From a virus, in IMG/VR virus record IMGVR_UViG_3300017605_000357, positions 1-29,633 of that record: a stretch of DNA of 29,633 nt, one strand, 5' to 3'. The notes beneath the pieces were generated by a model, which was given only the letters and a program-made list of their open reading frames with translations, was not told where the DNA came from and searched no databases. Numbering within the stretch: the stretch's first letter is position 1; each line of letters begins with the position of its first letter. The position numbers and the translations under genes were made by a program. This document shows, piece by piece, positions 1 through 4,301 of the stretch.

Positions 1-49
1 AGCCATGCTTATAACATGGAAATAGTCAGTTCGATTCTGACCGGTAGCA
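1..49 (+). tRNA. tRNA-Ile(UAU), 3' part only
   Basis: The window opens inside this tRNA, in front of the anticodon arm. The anticodon stem CCATG/CATGG (3-7 with 15-19) encloses the loop CTTATAA, which gives anticodon TAT and reads AUA. The T-arm is perfect: GTCAG, loop TTCGATT, CTGAC (25-41). The 3' acceptor strand CGGTAGC (42-48) and discriminator A49 follow. CCA is not encoded beyond the single C50. The acceptor and D-arm lie left of the window. AUA is rare in GC-rich hosts, so this tRNA would help an AT-rich phage. The next ATG begins at 51, one base after the discriminator. Confidence 0.85.
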
Positions 50-50
50 C

Positions 51-203
51 ATGTTAGATTGGAAAGCCTTCGCTGACACAAAACCGGAGTTATATGAGTT
101 TCTAACTACACAAGAATATATTGTTGAATATAATAAATGGAGATATAAAGCTAGACGTTTAGCACTAATATCAATGCTTGGCAACAAATGTGTTAATATG
201 TAA
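51..203 (+). CDS. small protein of unknown function, starting one base after a tRNA
   Basis: This is a 50-residue open frame starting MLDWKAFADTKPEL and rich in charged and aromatic residues, with a basic middle (YNKWRYKARR). No domain, membrane segment or signal peptide can be seen, and I do not recognise it. The ATG lies directly behind tRNA discriminator A49 plus C50, so there is no Shine-Dalgarno site. Translation would need a leaderless mRNA made by tRNA 3' processing. The ordinary codon composition and the same geometry at 285, 2569 and 3109 support it being real. It is short, so coding is likely rather than certain. Confidence 0.55.
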   Translation: MLDWKAFADTKPELYEFLTTQEYIVEYNKWRYKARRLALISMLGNKCVNM

Positions 204-283
204 GCGGAAACGTTCCTCATACATGAAGCGATATTATGCACTTAATGGAAGGAGGTAGGTGGGTTCAAGTCCCACCGCTCGCA
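204..283 (+). tRNA. tRNA-like element with intact T-arm and 3' acceptor strand
   Basis: The 3' half is unmistakably tRNA: T-stem GTGGG/CCCAC (259-263 with 271-275), loop TTCAAGT, 3' acceptor strand CGCTCGC (276-282) and discriminator A283. The 5' half does not fold as a normal tRNA. Only four bases, GCGG at 204 or GCGA at 228, can pair with the end of the acceptor strand. I find no five-base-pair anticodon stem with a seven-base loop, so I assign no anticodon. TTAATGG at 242-248 resembles a D-loop. It is either a degenerate tRNA or an element kept for its T-arm and acceptor. ATG of the next gene follows after C284. The left boundary is uncertain. Confidence 0.45.
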
Positions 284-284
284 C

Positions 285-452
285 ATGATACAAGCTCAGA
301 ATAAAGATGGAGAATGGGTACCAGCCATTCCAGAACCTTTCCATATCCTTAATGGTCTTAAACTTAAGTGCCAAAAATGCTTTAAGGATTATTGGACTTA
401 CGACGGTTATCGTGGTCACTATGCTCTCAAACATATATTGAGGTTGGATTAA
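285..452 (+). CDS. small CxxC protein, starting one base after a tRNA-like element
   Basis: This frame encodes 55 residues beginning MIQAQNKDGEW. It holds one CQKC pair near residue 30 followed by an aromatic, His-containing segment (YWTYDGYRGHYALKH), which suggests a small metal-binding fold. No family is recognised. The start is set by the tRNA-like element that ends at 283: C284 then ATG, with no Shine-Dalgarno site possible. The TAA stop overlaps the ATG of the next gene at 452 (TAATG), so the two are translationally coupled. Confidence 0.6.
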   Translation: MIQAQNKDGEWVPAIPEPFHILNGLKLKCQKCFKDYWTYDGYRGHYALKHILRLD

Positions 453-730
453 TGGCTAGAAGATTTGAAAGTATAGAAGAACCAACGATTAAAGTAATAC
501 GCATTGTTCACATAACGTGTGATAAATGTGGTCGAGCCTTAGATCGTGATGGAGATGAAGAACAGTTTCCAAATGAGCTAGTACTTGTTCTTAATGAATA
601 CGAATGTGTGAGTCAGAAATTTCTGAAGGATCTATGTACTGAATGTTTGACTCCAATCTGGTTGGATCTTTGTCAGATACTTGGTGTCGATCCTGATGAT
701 ACTTCGGGATCGAGTTTTAATAATGCATGA
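452..730 (+). CDS. hypothetical protein with two CxxC pairs
   Basis: The protein has 92 residues and starts MARRFESIEEP. CDKC near residue 23 and CTEC near residue 63 are spaced like two halves of a zinc ribbon. The N-terminus is basic and the C-terminus acidic and Ser/Asn-rich. I chose ATG 452 over an upstream in-frame ATG at 392 because 452 overlaps the stop of the previous gene and the extra residues would lie wholly inside that gene. The sequence TTGAGG sits ahead of the start at about the right distance. Function is unknown; a nucleic-acid-binding adaptor is possible. Confidence 0.7.
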   Translation: MARRFESIEEPTIKVIRIVHITCDKCGRALDRDGDEEQFPNELVLVLNEYECVSQKFLKDLCTECLTPIWLDLCQILGVDPDDTSGSSFNNA

Positions 731-751
731 TGGATAGTATGTCAATATATC

Positions 752-823
752 GCCGGTATAGCACAATGGCCAGTGCACCTGTCTTGTAAACAGGTTATCA
801 GAGTTCGATTCTCTGTTCCGGCT
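752..823 (+). tRNA. tRNA-Thr(UGU)
   Basis: This is a complete 72-nt cloverleaf. Acceptor 752-758/816-822 has one T-T mismatch at the sixth pair. The D-arm is GCAC/GTGC (761-764/773-776) with GG in the loop. The anticodon stem is CCTGT/ACAGG with loop CTTGTAA, giving anticodon TGT (785-787) for ACA. The T-arm is CAGAG, TTCGATT, CTCTG. The discriminator is T823 and CCA is not encoded. ACA is uncommon in GC-rich actinobacteria. Only C824 separates it from the structured RNA at 825-953. Confidence 0.93.
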
Positions 824-824
824 C

Positions 825-953
825 GATGGGCCAGACGCTAAAGGCCGAGATATAGTGTCATAGGCTGTCAGTCCCTCGCTATAGTTCGCGCGAGTAGCTG
901 TACACTGACTAAGCTATATCAGAGGGATAAGCCCGTCACTTACCCCATCACCA
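825..953 (+). ncRNA. structured RNA with tRNA-like ends (ACCA 3' end)
   Basis: There is no convincing gene in this stretch, but it holds nested perfect helices. GATGGG 825-830 pairs with CCCATC 944-949 and closes the element like an acceptor stem, followed by A950 and CCA 951-953. Inside are GATATAG 849-855 with CTATATC 914-920, GTCAGT 867-872 with ACTGAC 904-909, and CTCGC 875-879 with GCGAG 890-894. A separate hairpin is TAAG 928-931 with CTTA 939-942. GACG 834-837 could pair with CGTC 934-937 in a pseudoknot. A nine-codon frame (ATG 826 to TAG 855) overlaps the 5' end. It is not a normal tRNA, since the 3' hairpin loop is not TTCNANN. Its role is unknown; it may be a tRNA-like regulator or the leader of the gene at 991. 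Confidence 0.7.
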
Positions 954-990
954 AAATTTAATAGGATAGTAATAAGTTGGAAGGATTATT

Positions 991-2139
991 ATGGGTAAAC
1001 ATAGTGTCAAATCATCAGCTATTAAGAAGAATTTAGTTATTTCGCTTGGTGTTGGTGGACTGGTTGCTATTCTTATTGTTCCTAGCATGGCCAGTGCAGA
1101 TACAATAACTTCATTCTCTACTATTGCTAGAGATGAATGTGCCCAAGCATTAAATTGGCCTGATAGAACTGATGAACAAAAAGCTTGGCTGACATTATGT
1201 AAAGAAGCACTTACACCACCAACAGTAACTCCTACTCCAACTATTACAACGACACCAACCCCAACTATTACTCCTTCTGCTACTCAAACTACTACCTCAG
1301 CGCCGGCCACAACCACCACGCCGCCCGTCACAGTGACCGCTACGCCATCGCAAACAAATCCACCACCCACTACTCAGCCACCGCCGAGCGGAAATACAAA
1401 ACCGCAAGATGTTGGAGTTCCATCTAGTGTTGTAAGAACTGATGGTGGACCTTGTACAATCAATAGCAGTAATGTCACTTATAATGCAAGAAACTTTAAT
1501 TGCGATGGCATGCGAATTAACGGACAAAACGTAAAGATTACCAATTCATATATCACCACAGGGCAGTGGTGGAGTATCCTAATAGCAACAAATGCCTCGC
1601 TAACTATTGAAGATAGTACTATCGGTGGACCAAATGCATGCAACAGAGATGCCTCAATCAGTGGTGGTAATCTCATTGCACGTAGAATCAATCTCACTTC
1701 TGGTGGTGATGGATTCTGGGTATCTGGTCCTAACGTACTAGTTAGTAACTCATACGTCAAGCTTTGTGGTAGTGGTGGCACTCATGCTGACGGCATTCAG
1801 CTCAGTGATAGTGGTGGAAACAATTCAGTATTTGACAACGTAACTTTCGACATGTCATTTACAAGTCTTGGATCACAAAATTCACCAGTGTTCTGGTCTG
1901 GATCCACGCAAGGTAACAATGCTACTATTAAGAATAGCTTACTAATTGCTGGTGGTTATACTTTACGAGTGCATTCCGGTACAGGCATATCACTCATTAA
2001 TAACGTGATAGCTAAAAACGCTTGGCAATTTGGTCCTACTCTGATTGATTCAGGTAGAGTTTCAGTATGTACTGGAAATGTTGTAGCTGATGTTGATTCC
2101 AACTACAATGTATCAAATAGGGTTTCGATAGGTTGCTAA
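991..2139 (+). CDS. secreted right-handed beta-helix protein (pectate lyase-like fold)
   Basis: The protein has 382 residues. Residues 1-36 form a Sec signal peptide: basic start, hydrophobic core around 15-31 and cleavage near ASA-D. A short helical domain with two Cys follows (about 37-73). Next comes a Thr/Pro-rich linker (about 75-135) and a beta-helix of roughly 240 residues. Helix rungs show as repeated Asn/Gly-rich strands such as NVKITNSYI, ATIKNSLLI and ISLINNVI. Scattered Cys may form disulfides after export. The fold is common in polysaccharide lyases and depolymerases, but I cannot identify catalytic residues. GGAAGGA lies just upstream of ATG. The linker DNA around 1290-1400 is much richer in GC than its surroundings, which suggests recombination with a GC-rich genome. 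Confidence 0.8.
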   Translation: MGKHSVKSSAIKKNLVISLGVGGLVAILIVPSMASADTITSFSTIARDECAQALNWPDRTDEQKAWLTLCKEALTPPTVTPTPTITTTPTPTITPSATQTTTSAPATTTTPPVTVTATPSQTNPPPTTQPPPSGNTKPQDVGVPSSVVRTDGGPCTINSSNVTYNARNFNCDGMRINGQNVKITNSYITTGQWWSILIATNASLTIEDSTIGGPNACNRDASISGGNLIARRINLTSGGDGFWVSGPNVLVSNSYVKLCGSGGTHADGIQLSDSGGNNSVFDNVTFDMSFTSLGSQNSPVFWSGSTQGNNATIKNSLLIAGGYTLRVHSGTGISLINNVIAKNAWQFGPTLIDSGRVSVCTGNVVADVDSNYNVSNRVSIGC

Positions 2140-2483
2140 TGTCAAATAATAGATCAAGTAATGATGAATTAACTATAAGATTAACTTATCTTCGCAGCAA
2201 AGCTAACAATCCAACTTTAAGACACATAGCAGATGTAACCAATCATTCTGTAGCAACTATTCATTCTGCGTTTAACAGTAGAAGAGTAAGCTGGCCTATA
2301 GTTAGAGATATCTTAAAGTTTTTTAATGTAGAAGATGAAGAAACCATCAAAGACTACATGAAATTATGGGGTAAAACTTTTCCTACTGAACGTAGACAAC
2401 CTTATCATGAGCTTAGTGAAAGACTTGATAAAGTTGAAACTAAATTAGATGAAATACGTGCCTTATTACTTCCACCAAAATAA
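2139..2483 (+). CDS. helix-turn-helix DNA-binding protein with C-terminal coiled coil
   Basis: The protein has 114 residues. Residues about 8-65 look like the Xre/lambda-repressor type of helix-turn-helix found in many actinobacterial proteins: TLRHIADVTNHSVATIHSAF, then a WPIVRDILKFF helix. Residues about 85-110 form a heptad helix (LSERLDKVETKLDEIRALL) suited to dimerisation. The start ATG 2139 overlaps the TAA of the beta-helix gene, so the two are coupled and may be controlled together. An in-frame TTG at 2133 is less likely. The target site is unknown; the structured RNA and hairpins nearby are candidates for study. Confidence 0.75.
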   Translation: MSNNRSSNDELTIRLTYLRSKANNPTLRHIADVTNHSVATIHSAFNSRRVSWPIVRDILKFFNVEDEETIKDYMKLWGKTFPTERRQPYHELSERLDKVETKLDEIRALLLPPK

Positions 2484-2494
2484 CAATTTAATAG

Positions 2495-2567
2495 GCTCAC
2501 GTGCGCTAACGGCAAAGCGATCAGATTCAAAATCTGGTGATTGTTGGTTCGAATCCAACCGTGAGTA
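2495..2567 (+). tRNA. tRNA with anticodon CAA (nominally Leu) on a class I body
   Basis: The cloverleaf has 73 nt. The acceptor is GCTCACG/CGTGAGT (2495-2501/2560-2566), with a G-T first pair. The D-arm is CGC/GCG with GG in the loop. The anticodon stem TCAGA/TCTGG encloses TTCAAAA, giving CAA (2528-2530), which reads UUG. The variable region is only TGATT, and the T-arm is GTTGG, TTCGAAT, CCAAC. The discriminator is A2567, then C2568, then ATG. Bacterial leucine tRNAs normally have a long variable arm, so identity is uncertain even though the anticodon is clear. UUG is a rare codon in GC-rich hosts. Confidence 0.85.
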
Positions 2568-2568
2568 C

Positions 2569-3027
2569 ATGACAAATTATGATAGCACGGCAGATACATT
2601 GAAGCACAGTGCACGTGTTGGTGTACTTATGGACAGCATACTATACGAATTGATTGATCGTAGTCGTCATCATGACATTAGTAAAACTGCTAATCCTGAG
2701 AAGGCTATGTTTGATGAGTTTACACCAAAACTCAAAGAATTAACGTATGGTTCTGATGAATACAAAGCTTGTTTAGTAGATATGGGTGAAGCCTTAAAGC
2801 ATCACTATGCAAGTAATAGACATCACCCGGAGCACTTCGAAGATGGCATCAACGGTATGACGCTCGTTGATTTGATTGAAATGCTTGCCGATTGGAAAGC
2901 TGCCACGGAGCGTATGGATAACGGTAATTTAGGCATAAGTCTGCAAATTCAGAAAGAACGCTTTGGAATCTCTGACCAATTAATGACCATTTTGGAAAAC
3001 ACAGCTCAATGGTTTGGTTGGATATAG
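2569..3027 (+). CDS. DUF5662 family protein
   Basis: The protein has 152 residues. It carries the family hallmarks: SRHHDISKTANPEK at about 32-45, then TPKLKELTYGSDEYK, then LKHHYASNRHHPEHF at about 76-90, then the helices MTLVDLIEMLADWKAA. The His/Asp pattern recalls HD-type metal-binding helical proteins, but activity is unproven. The family is frequent in phages. The family homology begins right at ATG 2569, which supports this start although it lies one base behind a tRNA and has no Shine-Dalgarno site. Starts further upstream would run through the tRNA. Confidence 0.8.
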   Translation: MTNYDSTADTLKHSARVGVLMDSILYELIDRSRHHDISKTANPEKAMFDEFTPKLKELTYGSDEYKACLVDMGEALKHHYASNRHHPEHFEDGINGMTLVDLIEMLADWKAATERMDNGNLGISLQIQKERFGISDQLMTILENTAQWFGWI

Positions 3028-3033
3028 TTCTAA

Positions 3034-3107
3034 GCCCACGTAATGGCCCGGTCTTCTAAACCAGAGGTGCATAATGGACAATGCTGGTTCGAATCCAGTC
3101 GTGGGTG
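3034..3107 (+). tRNA. aberrant tRNA-like element, possible tRNA-Arg(UCU)
   Basis: The acceptor GCCCACG/CGTGGGT (3034-3040/3100-3106) and the T-arm GCTGG, TTCGAAT, CCAGT (3083-3099) are sound. The loop CTTCTAA (3053-3059) sits in a stem CCGGT/ACCAG with one C-A mismatch and would give anticodon TCT for AGA. It lies too close to the acceptor: only TAATGGC remains where a D-arm should be. About 18 extra bases fill the variable region, and these include the D-loop-like AATGGACA between GCAT and ATGC. Either the D-arm is lost and a class II-like arm gained, or the element no longer decodes. A long-D-loop fold gives no anticodon stem. Discriminator G3107, C3108, then ATG. Confidence 0.55.
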
Positions 3108-3108
3108 C

Positions 3109-3411
3109 ATGAGAATTACAGGAACAGAACGTGGTACAATATGGGGCTTACATGGTAAGCAATCTAAGCAAAAGTATGTTTCTACATACACGCAACCAAT
3201 ACAAAATTATGTAGTATCATGGTTATATCATCACATTTGGGAAAAGATATCTTGGCGTTTCTTTAGATATCTTGAGAAATTCCAACATGAGCTTGATATC
3301 GGCGCTGAAACAATCAATACTCCATTCACGAACAGACAAGATCTCAGATGCGATCGTCTAAGTCATAAAAATAAAATCATTCTAAAAACGGAATATGAGG
3401 ATATAGATTGA
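3109..3411 (+). CDS. hypothetical protein, starting one base after a tRNA-like element
   Basis: The protein has 100 residues beginning MRITGTERGTIW. It is basic and rich in aromatic residues, with a Trp/Phe-rich helix around residues 38-57 (WLYHHIWEKISWRFFRYLEK). No family is recognised. The start is fixed by the tRNA-like element ending at 3107, so the mRNA would be leaderless after tRNA processing. Starting upstream at 3043 would place the N-terminus inside the tRNA-like element. The gene ends one base before the next ATG at 3413. Confidence 0.65.
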   Translation: MRITGTERGTIWGLHGKQSKQKYVSTYTQPIQNYVVSWLYHHIWEKISWRFFRYLEKFQHELDIGAETINTPFTNRQDLRCDRLSHKNKIILKTEYEDID

Positions 3412-3412
3412 C

Positions 3413-3703
3413 ATGATGACTCCACTACTACCAATGAACATCCATCCTTGGTGTAATTGTCATGCCACCGGTAAATGGCTACAACAGGATGGTTATGGCT
3501 TCGATCCTCCATCAGGTTTGTGGGTTCACGGTAGATGCCGTAAACCAAGTAAAATGAATTATGATCGATTTGTACTTGGTTTGGAACCTATTCCACAACC
3601 CAAAAAGCCAACAGATATCTACGAAGTAGAACGTAGATACGAAGCCCGACAAACTATAGAAGAAGAATTAGATTGGGAAGATGACGACGATGACGATTGG
3701 TGA
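3413..3703 (+). CDS. hypothetical protein with acidic tail
   Basis: The protein has 96 residues. The N-terminal half holds CNCHATGKW and HGRCRKPSK, which look like one small zinc-binding module around residues 14-45 preceded by the HPW motif. The C-terminus ends in a run of seven acidic residues. Two ATG codons are adjacent (3413 and 3416) and either could serve. The last 14 bases overlap the Fic gene. Function is unknown; this type of Cys/His patch is common in small actinophage proteins. Confidence 0.7.
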   Translation: MMTPLLPMNIHPWCNCHATGKWLQQDGYGFDPPSGLWVHGRCRKPSKMNYDRFVLGLEPIPQPKKPTDIYEVERRYEARQTIEEELDWEDDDDDDW

Positions 3704-4166
3704 TCTGCCAGAGAATTATGTTGAACAATCAAATTTGATTGAAGGTGTTACTGATCTAGCAGAAATTCCTAAGTCGATAAGAGCTTGGAAATTTCTCTCA
3801 TCGATTGAATTCTTAACTAAAGAAATAATTCTTGATGTTCACAAGATTATAATGGAAGGACTAATTCACCATACATTAGCAGGTAAGTATCGTCCTTACA
3901 ATGTAGTTGTTGGTGGAAGATCTTGTCCATCATTTTTATTAGTACCAGGTTTGATGGGTGAATGGATCCTAAACATGCGTCATTGGCAGGATCTATCACC
4001 AAAACTAAACCATGTTAGTTTTGAAGTAATACATCCATTTGTTGATGGTAATGGTAGAGTTGGTCGATTGCTTATGTGGTGGCATGAGGCTAAGCGAGAC
4101 GAAGATCTAACTCTTATAGAATACAAGAATCGTTGGGACTACTATAAATGGTTTCCCCAAAGCTAA
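3690..4166 (+). CDS. Fic domain protein (probable AMPylase)
   Basis: The protein has 158 residues, essentially a minimal Fic core. The catalytic loop HPFVDGNGRVGR spans about residues 115-126 and matches HPFx(D/N)GNGRxxR in full, including the catalytic His. Upstream AGKYRPYNVVVGG is the flap that aligns the target. SNLIEG at residues 14-19 fits the inhibitory (S/T)xxxE(G/N) motif, so the enzyme is probably self-restrained, as in class II Fic proteins. Fic enzymes usually transfer AMP to hydroxyl side chains of target proteins. The start at 3690 has GGGAAG nine bases upstream; 3681 is an alternative but abuts that site. No antitoxin gene is evident nearby. The target is unknown; host takeover or defence against other phages is possible. 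Confidence 0.88.
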   Translation: MTIGDLPENYVEQSNLIEGVTDLAEIPKSIRAWKFLSSIEFLTKEIILDVHKIIMEGLIHHTLAGKYRPYNVVVGGRSCPSFLLVPGLMGEWILNMRHWQDLSPKLNHVSFEVIHPFVDGNGRVGRLLMWWHEAKRDEDLTLIEYKNRWDYYKWFPQS

Positions 4167-4229: not shown

Positions 4230-4301
4230 ACGCCGCTAGCTCAGTGGTAGAGCCATTGACTCTTAATCAATAGGTCGAGAGTTCGATTCTCTCGCGGCGT
4301 A
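4230..4301 (+). tRNA. tRNA-Lys(CUU)
   Basis: This is a clean 72-nt cloverleaf. The acceptor is ACGCCGC/GCGGCGT, the D-arm GCTC/GAGC with GTGG in the loop, and the anticodon stem ATTGA/TCAAT. The loop CTCTTAA gives anticodon CTT (4262-4264). The T-arm is GAGAG, TTCGATT, CTCTC. The discriminator is A4301 and CCA is not encoded. Unlike the tRNAs to its left it is not followed at once by ATG: the next gene has its own ribosome binding site. AAG is not rare in GC-rich hosts, so codon supply alone does not explain it. Confidence 0.95.

Follow-up and report, generated by a model that had tools for sequence, protein, structure and literature searches.

Gene starts one base behind tRNA ends in an actinobacteria-type phage, and a putative tRNA-Arg of rewired chain order among them

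Genes that begin almost directly behind a tRNA raise the question of whether the tRNA merely adjoins the message or, by its own excision, also defines where the message starts. The locus considered here lies in a stretch of 29,633 nucleotides (nt) from an actinobacteria-type phage (IMG/VR record IMGVR_UViG_3300017605_000357; the whole stretch is called the window). Four tRNA or tRNA-like elements, with discriminator bases at 49, 283, 2567 and 3107, are each followed by a single C and then by ATG (at 51, 285, 2569 and 3109), exactly so in 4/4 cases and exactly where the initial annotation had put them; a start codon with one base between it and the discriminator is termed a +1 start. We assign a probability of roughly 0.62 to the reading that these are sites of tRNA punctuation giving rise to leaderless mRNAs and that the fourth element is a functional tRNA-Arg(UCU) with a rewired chain. 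The junctions are less novel than the rewired tRNA family that contains this fourth element. The elements and the frames behind them are as follows.

1..49, + strand: 3' part of a tRNA-Ile(UAU), with anticodon 10-12, T arm 25-41, acceptor 3' strand 42-48 and discriminator A49
51..203, + strand: open reading frame (ORF) of 50 amino acids (aa), ATG at +1 after C50
200..283, + strand: tRNA-like element or remnant, with intact T arm 259-275, acceptor 3' strand 276-282 and discriminator A283
285..452, + strand: gene of 55 aa, ATG at +1 after C284
2495..2567, + strand: canonical tRNA-Leu(CAA), with discriminator A2567 and C2568
2569..3027, + strand: DUF5662 gene (PF18907), ATG at +1, Pfam match from residue 4
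3034..3107, + strand: predicted rewired tRNA-Arg(UCU), 38.8 bits and E 9e-9 with covariance model R1
3109..3411, + strand: ORF of 100 aa, ATG at +1 after C3108

The window matches a T-arm pattern ending in C-ATG at these four places and at one further place by chance, against 0.22 matches expected from shuffling. Junctions are present in 4/7 of its tRNA or tRNA-like elements (P = 9e-6, with a probability of ATG after C of 0.023), and the gene starts straight after the tRNA 3' end, as in punctuation of the mitochondrial type. The intervening C is not special, because it stands at this place in almost every CCA-less phage tRNA gene (about 90-98%, in actinophages and others alike); it is the encoded first base (C74) of the CCA tail and no signal by itself. 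Two canonical tRNAs of the window have no +1 start behind them.

752..823, + strand: canonical tRNA-Thr(UGU), with an ATG at +2 that opens 9 codons only
4230..4301, + strand: canonical tRNA-Lys(CUU), without a +1 start

The description of all four elements as tRNAs or tRNA-like held for the Ile part, whose 5' part lies beyond the window start, for tRNA-Leu and, with a rewired topology, for tRNA-Arg. The element at 200-283 turned out to be a remnant consisting of a T arm and acceptor: its best acceptor partner, GTAAGCG at 200-206, makes 6/7 pairs, no cloverleaf was found, and Rfam detects the T arm alone. Its interpretation as a rewired tRNA was rejected, being unsupported in searches with the R1 model and Rfam.

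For two of the genes behind the junctions, homology bears out the claim that they are real or likely. The product of 2569-3027 matches DUF5662 with E 3e-34 (118 bits against a gathering score of 27), and its relatives begin at about the same residue, which supports 2569 as a real start. Translation from 2449 through the tRNA, in a frame that is open, was considered and set aside, since the family homology and the relatives' starts favour 2569. None of the 23 relatives inspected has a tRNA end immediately upstream of this gene; the junction is therefore not a property of the DUF5662 gene. The gene at 285..452 has a homologue in the phage locus L029 (53% over 51 aa) with a compatible start.

Other phages were scanned after being picked solely for carrying a rewired tRNA. 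Gilson and further Streptomyces phages are among those found by the Arg-type scan; the Ile-type scan yields mostly other phages. In the former, an ORF of at least 40 codons stands at +1 after 14/198 canonical and 6/17 rewired tRNAs, compared with means of 1.6 and 0.45, respectively, at other offsets; the latter gave 1/288 and 0/70. For a pooled set of 317 CCA-less tRNAs from window-like and other actinophages, ORFs of at least 40 codons with an ATG or GTG start number 1, 28, 2, 1 and 6 at offsets +0, +1, +2, +3 and +4. The 28 cases at +1 represent 17 apparently unrelated gene families versus about 3 per other offset (Poisson P about 4e-8). Homologues hold the +1 position with ATG and GTG exchanged (M/VVNTKK after tRNA-Phe and M/VERKL after rewired tRNA-Arg), GenBank annotation already starts genes at +1 in Gilson, Moab and NiceHouse, and genes of A3Wally also begin there. 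A true relative of the window phage, L435 (55-79% aa identity to several window proteins), carries ATG or GTG ORFs of 49-114 codons at +1 after 3/8 of its tRNAs, in different genes. Judged from these genomes, the +1 junction is a lineage habit of actinophages and not peculiar to the window phage.

The start codons at +1 follow a narrow rule. ATG or GTG at this position opens an ORF in 28/32 instances and TTG in 1/13 (Fisher 7e-7); TTG serves as a start elsewhere in these actinophages. Leaderless initiation in mycobacteria works with ATG and GTG and fails with TTG and CTG (PMC4633059), a rule that the ATG/GTG-only pattern matches, so that the +1 genes bear the starts expected of leaderless mRNAs. 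In Streptomyces coelicolor, 264 mRNAs have leaders under 10 nt, and most CCA-encoding tRNAs are cut between the two Cs (PMC4681348); with such a cut the phage message may start exactly at AUG. A cut after C74 that leaves the start codon as the 5' end would explain why +1 is preferred over 0 or 2.

Energies of pairing with the anti-Shine-Dalgarno sequence lie between -0.7 and -4.0 at the four window junctions, against a background median of -2.4, and other genes of the window mostly reach -4 to -15. The junctions thus have no Shine-Dalgarno (SD) site, in agreement with the initial annotation. A TANNNT -10 element was found at none of the four and is present in 2/23 related junctions.

These observations suggest a mechanism in which phage tRNA genes would double as punctuation, co-transcribed with the small genes behind them. 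A tRNA 3' endonuclease, tRNase Z or a different one, would cut the folded tRNA, most likely right after C74, freeing the tRNA together with a downstream mRNA that starts with AUG or GUG (with C-AUG if the cut falls after the discriminator). Translation of this mRNA would then need no leader, something of which actinobacterial ribosomes are capable, and the fourth punctuating element would be a functional tRNA-Arg(UCU) in which a non-circularly permuted chain forms the cloverleaf core. Processing into leaderless mRNA is the best reading because of the +1 peak, the ATG/GTG swaps, the ATG/GTG-only rule, the lack of SD sites in the window and the lack of a -10 element. What was first proposed is supported in part: the +1 peak in relatives and the start codon rule speak for tRNA 3' processing, and a 5' AUG, from a cut after the C, is favoured over the C-AUG end originally envisaged. 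The rewired topology of the fourth element is an addition to that proposal.

The fourth element has a 7-bp acceptor, a 5-bp T arm with a TTCRA loop and a 7-nt anticodon loop with U33, and its nt 9 leads to the anticodon arm without an intervening D hairpin. It is missed by ARAGORN and scores 28.3 bits with Rfam RF00005, under the gathering score of 29, which some members of its family pass. When 3033-3107 was folded by minimum free energy, no cloverleaf appeared and the z-score was weak; the architecture was derived instead from comparison with other elements that ARAGORN misses. In all of them the first acceptor strand leads to U8 A9, the D-stem 3' strand and the anticodon arm; then come the variable region, the D-stem 5' strand and the D-loop, and finally the T arm and the second acceptor strand. 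Compared with a standard tRNA, nucleotides 10-21 (the D-stem 5' strand and the D-loop) are relocated to just before nt 48. In the window member this corresponds to acceptor 3034-3040, U8 A9 3041-3042, D-stem 3' strand 3044-3046, anticodon arm 3048-3064 (anticodon 3055-3057), variable region 3065-3068, D-stem 5' strand 3069-3071, D-loop with A20 3072-3082, T arm 3083-3099, acceptor 3100-3106 and G73 at 3107. The three joins so created (9 to 22, 47 to 10 and 21 to 48) connect nucleotides that are adjacent in the core structure of a standard tRNA. Rfam aligns the rewired tRNAs with the D-arm deleted and 15-18 nt inserted in the variable region, which is an independent view of the same rearrangement.

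The search descriptor also caught about ten canonical tRNAs, and after their removal the rewired family comprises 122 distinct members. In an ungapped alignment of 87 members, 99.0% of pairs are standard, compared with at most 49% in slid versions. The D-stem is 99.6% paired with both-side changes at all three pairs; the Ile scan pattern fixed two D-stem G's and parts of the D-loop, which makes conservation there partly a matter of construction, and left the partner strand, third pair and anticodon free, as well as whether position 20 is A or U. The relocated D-loop has the consensus A14, A15, G18, G19, A21. Members score about 35 bits and above with R1, against 32 or less for most canonical tRNAs; in the search that gave the window member 38.8 bits, canonical tRNAs reached at most 27. 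The acceptor strands are in normal order in every member, which sets the family apart from circularly permuted tRNA genes. By this comparison, 3034-3107 is a predicted tRNA-Arg(UCU) with a rewired chain order.

The anticodons of the family read Ile (UAU, GAU) or Arg (UCU, ACG, UCG, CCU), plus one CAU, and loci that were selected without this pattern likewise yield clear members of the Ile or Arg type, plus the same CAU. Position 20 holds A in 64/64 Arg members and in 1/57 Ile members (Fisher 4e-34, uncorrected for relatedness), and A73 is present in 57/57 Ile members. Canonical phage tRNAs of the same loci behave alike, with A20 in 124/129 Arg and 2/77 Ile and U20 in 71/77 Ile. In E. coli, arginine identity depends chiefly on A20, and in bacteria A73 is among the determinants of isoleucine identity (PMC9976931). 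Accordingly, the relocated segment seems to occupy the usual place of the D-loop, and the rewired tRNAs look like working tRNAs that would be charged. With anticodon UCU, A20 and G73, the window member carries the tRNA-Arg identity set A20, C35, U/G36, A/G73. It is the only UCU tRNA detected in the window, where AGA is the commonest Arg codon (105/269). Rewired and canonical anticodons overlap in 6/96 cases and duplicates among canonical tRNAs occur in 3/288, from which no claim of complementarity is drawn; in phage A3Wally, rewired and canonical ACG tRNAs coexist.

How else might the junctions have come about? The main rival to processing places an SD site inside the tRNA, whose G-rich acceptor 3' strand would recruit ribosomes on unprocessed transcripts and make cleavage unneeded. 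It is kept because this strand is SD-like in several relatives, strongly so in tRNA-Thr of L433 (AGGAGG), tRNA-Lys of L432 (GGAGGGGG) and tRNA-Phe of Moab (AGGAG), and is more SD-like overall at tRNAs with +1 genes (median -5.6 vs -3.85, P 1e-4). We nevertheless regard it as unlikely: none of the four window junctions has such a strand, base pairing in the acceptor stem would occupy it, and the arrangement would allow varied spacing and TTG starts, yet +0, +2 and +3 are nearly empty and TTG is almost unused. Simple genome compaction, with +1 as the closest approach of a gene to a tRNA that keeps C74, suits the tight packing of tRNAs and genes in these phages and the almost invariable presence of C74, but it predicts neither the bias for ATG/GTG over TTG nor the nearly empty +2 and +3 positions, and the phages of the Ile scan, also tRNA-rich, are nearly without +1 genes (1/288); it appears quite improbable. 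A promoter with its start site at the A of ATG, the tRNA being a bystander, would agree with the description of mycobacterial leaderless mRNAs as products of transcription rather than processing (PMC4633059). The scarcity of TANNNT (0/4 and 2/23 junctions) and the fact that tRNA structure fixes the bases in the -10 region leave this explanation very little probability.

Besides the SD-like acceptor strands of relatives, several findings weigh against processing of functional tRNAs as the common explanation. Homologues are lacking for two of the four ORFs behind the junctions: none was found among the fetched loci for 51..203, and neither a homologue nor a database match for 3109..3411. One of the 17 families at +1 (669 codons, L055) may be a chance frame, and the +4 group, C-NNN-ATG, also holds six ORFs of at least 40 codons, some of them unconvincing as genes. 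The initial annotation had suggested a search of related genomes for tRNA-C-ATG junctions, which succeeded in actinophages (28/317 at +1) and failed in random IMG/VR contigs, where ATG at +1 after a tRNA is not enriched. As that global test was negative, the +1 effect is taken as lineage-specific; in 57% of instances the +1 ATGs of the random contigs begin an ORF of 40 codons or longer, about twice the value of other offsets or more. Finally, just 2/3 of the D-stem pairs of the window member 3034-3107 are standard, and its predicted topology therefore rests on homology, the D-loop and A20.

For that element itself, the alternative is a D-armless tRNA whose variable region has received an unrelated insertion, or else a decoy for anticodon nucleases. 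Phage tRNAs counter tRNA-cutting defences, which lends the decoy version some plausibility, and the alignment by Rfam as a D-arm deletion plus an insertion fits the D-armless one. Across the family, however, the insertion pairs with the remaining D strand in a covarying manner and bears the D-loop consensus, and base 20 tracks the amino acid, as neither version predicts. Both therefore seem improbable. That many phages encode working, non-circularly permuted tRNA-Arg and tRNA-Ile, with D-stem, D-loop/T-loop contacts and identity bases preserved, which in actinophages would also act as processing signals for leaderless mRNAs, we hold to be probable with some confidence.

Rewired tRNAs are known from phages of Streptomyces, Rhodococcus, Microbacterium and Pseudomonas and from crAss-like phages. 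The window element recurs, about 90% identical, in 14 Gilsonvirus phage records and is recognisable in Rhodococcus and Pseudomonas phages, in each case mostly unannotated. At least 120 stretches in IMG/VR fit the Ile-type pattern, compared with three contigs, all from metagenome-assembled genomes, among 84,980 bacterial and archaeal genomes. The crAss-like phage cr130_1 has an unannotated rewired tRNA (UAU) at L443:5446-5523. GenBank labels tRNAs of the rewired type as tRNA-Phe (Mildred21), tRNA-Leu (EGole), tRNA-Val (Yaboi) or tRNA-OTHER, among them L004:16989-17064. A possible D-armless tRNA-Ser(GCU)-like element was seen in another phage contig at L263:1177-1250. According to a 2023 paper, permuted hammerheads were the first natural RNAs known to have a non-circular permutation (PMC10085705). 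Permutation goes unmentioned in a review of non-canonical tRNAs (PMC7609411), and no description of such a rewired tRNA was found in open-access papers (preprints and subscription papers not covered). The family is apparently undescribed so far.

Some further features of the window may be recorded. Directly 3' of tRNA-Thr, positions 825-955 hold a GATGGG...CCCATCACCA segment of modest folding (z -2.0) with neither an Rfam nor a phage match. The frame at 991-2139 encodes a protein with a signal-like N-terminus and a Thr/Pro-rich linker, without a Pfam match, and 3681-4166 encodes a Fic/DOC family protein (Pfam E 2e-13).

If the reading is right, tRNA does not have a fixed chain order, a rewired chain can make a working tRNA, and a further natural non-circular RNA permutation stands beside the hammerhead ribozymes. 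Standard tools miss rewired tRNAs or misname them, as the GenBank labels illustrate, so that the decoding capacity of phages is misjudged. The junctions amount to a testable proposal that phages in hosts tolerant of leaderless messages gain mRNA 5' ends free from tRNA processing, and they supply a start-site rule, discriminator-C-RTG, for annotating small genes beside tRNAs.

Among known systems, the junctions resemble the tRNA punctuation of animal mitochondria, in which the tRNA 3' end likewise abuts the start codon, excision would set the 5' end of the mRNA and initiation is leaderless. They differ from it in that only some of the phage tRNAs have a +1 start, SD-led genes coexist with them, the machinery is bacterial, and the system is known from sequence. 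With the leaderless genes of mycobacteria and Streptomyces (PMC4633059, PMC4681348) they share the use of ATG and GTG rather than TTG and independence of an SD site; the mycobacterial messages are described as arising by transcription initiation, whereas the phage messages are proposed to arise by processing at the tRNA.

The rewired tRNA keeps the acceptor, anticodon and T arms of a canonical tRNA (RF00005) along with U8, A14, G18 G19, U33 and A58, and its Arg and Ile members carry the A20 and the A73, respectively, of their canonical counterparts. It departs from the canonical form in that nt 10-21 are placed behind the variable region and ahead of the T arm, with nt 9 linked directly to nt 22. 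Circularly permuted tRNA genes (PMC3978253) also encode the parts of a tRNA in altered order, but their transcripts are circularised and cut back to a standard tRNA, whereas in the rewired form the acceptor strands stay in place and an internal segment is moved. Like the D-armless tRNAs of mitochondria, the rewired tRNA has no D hairpin at the usual place; unlike them, it retains the D-stem and D-loop at a new location. The non-circularly permuted hammerhead ribozymes (PMC10085705) likewise have an altered order of internal segments and keep their fold, in a ribozyme rather than a tRNA.

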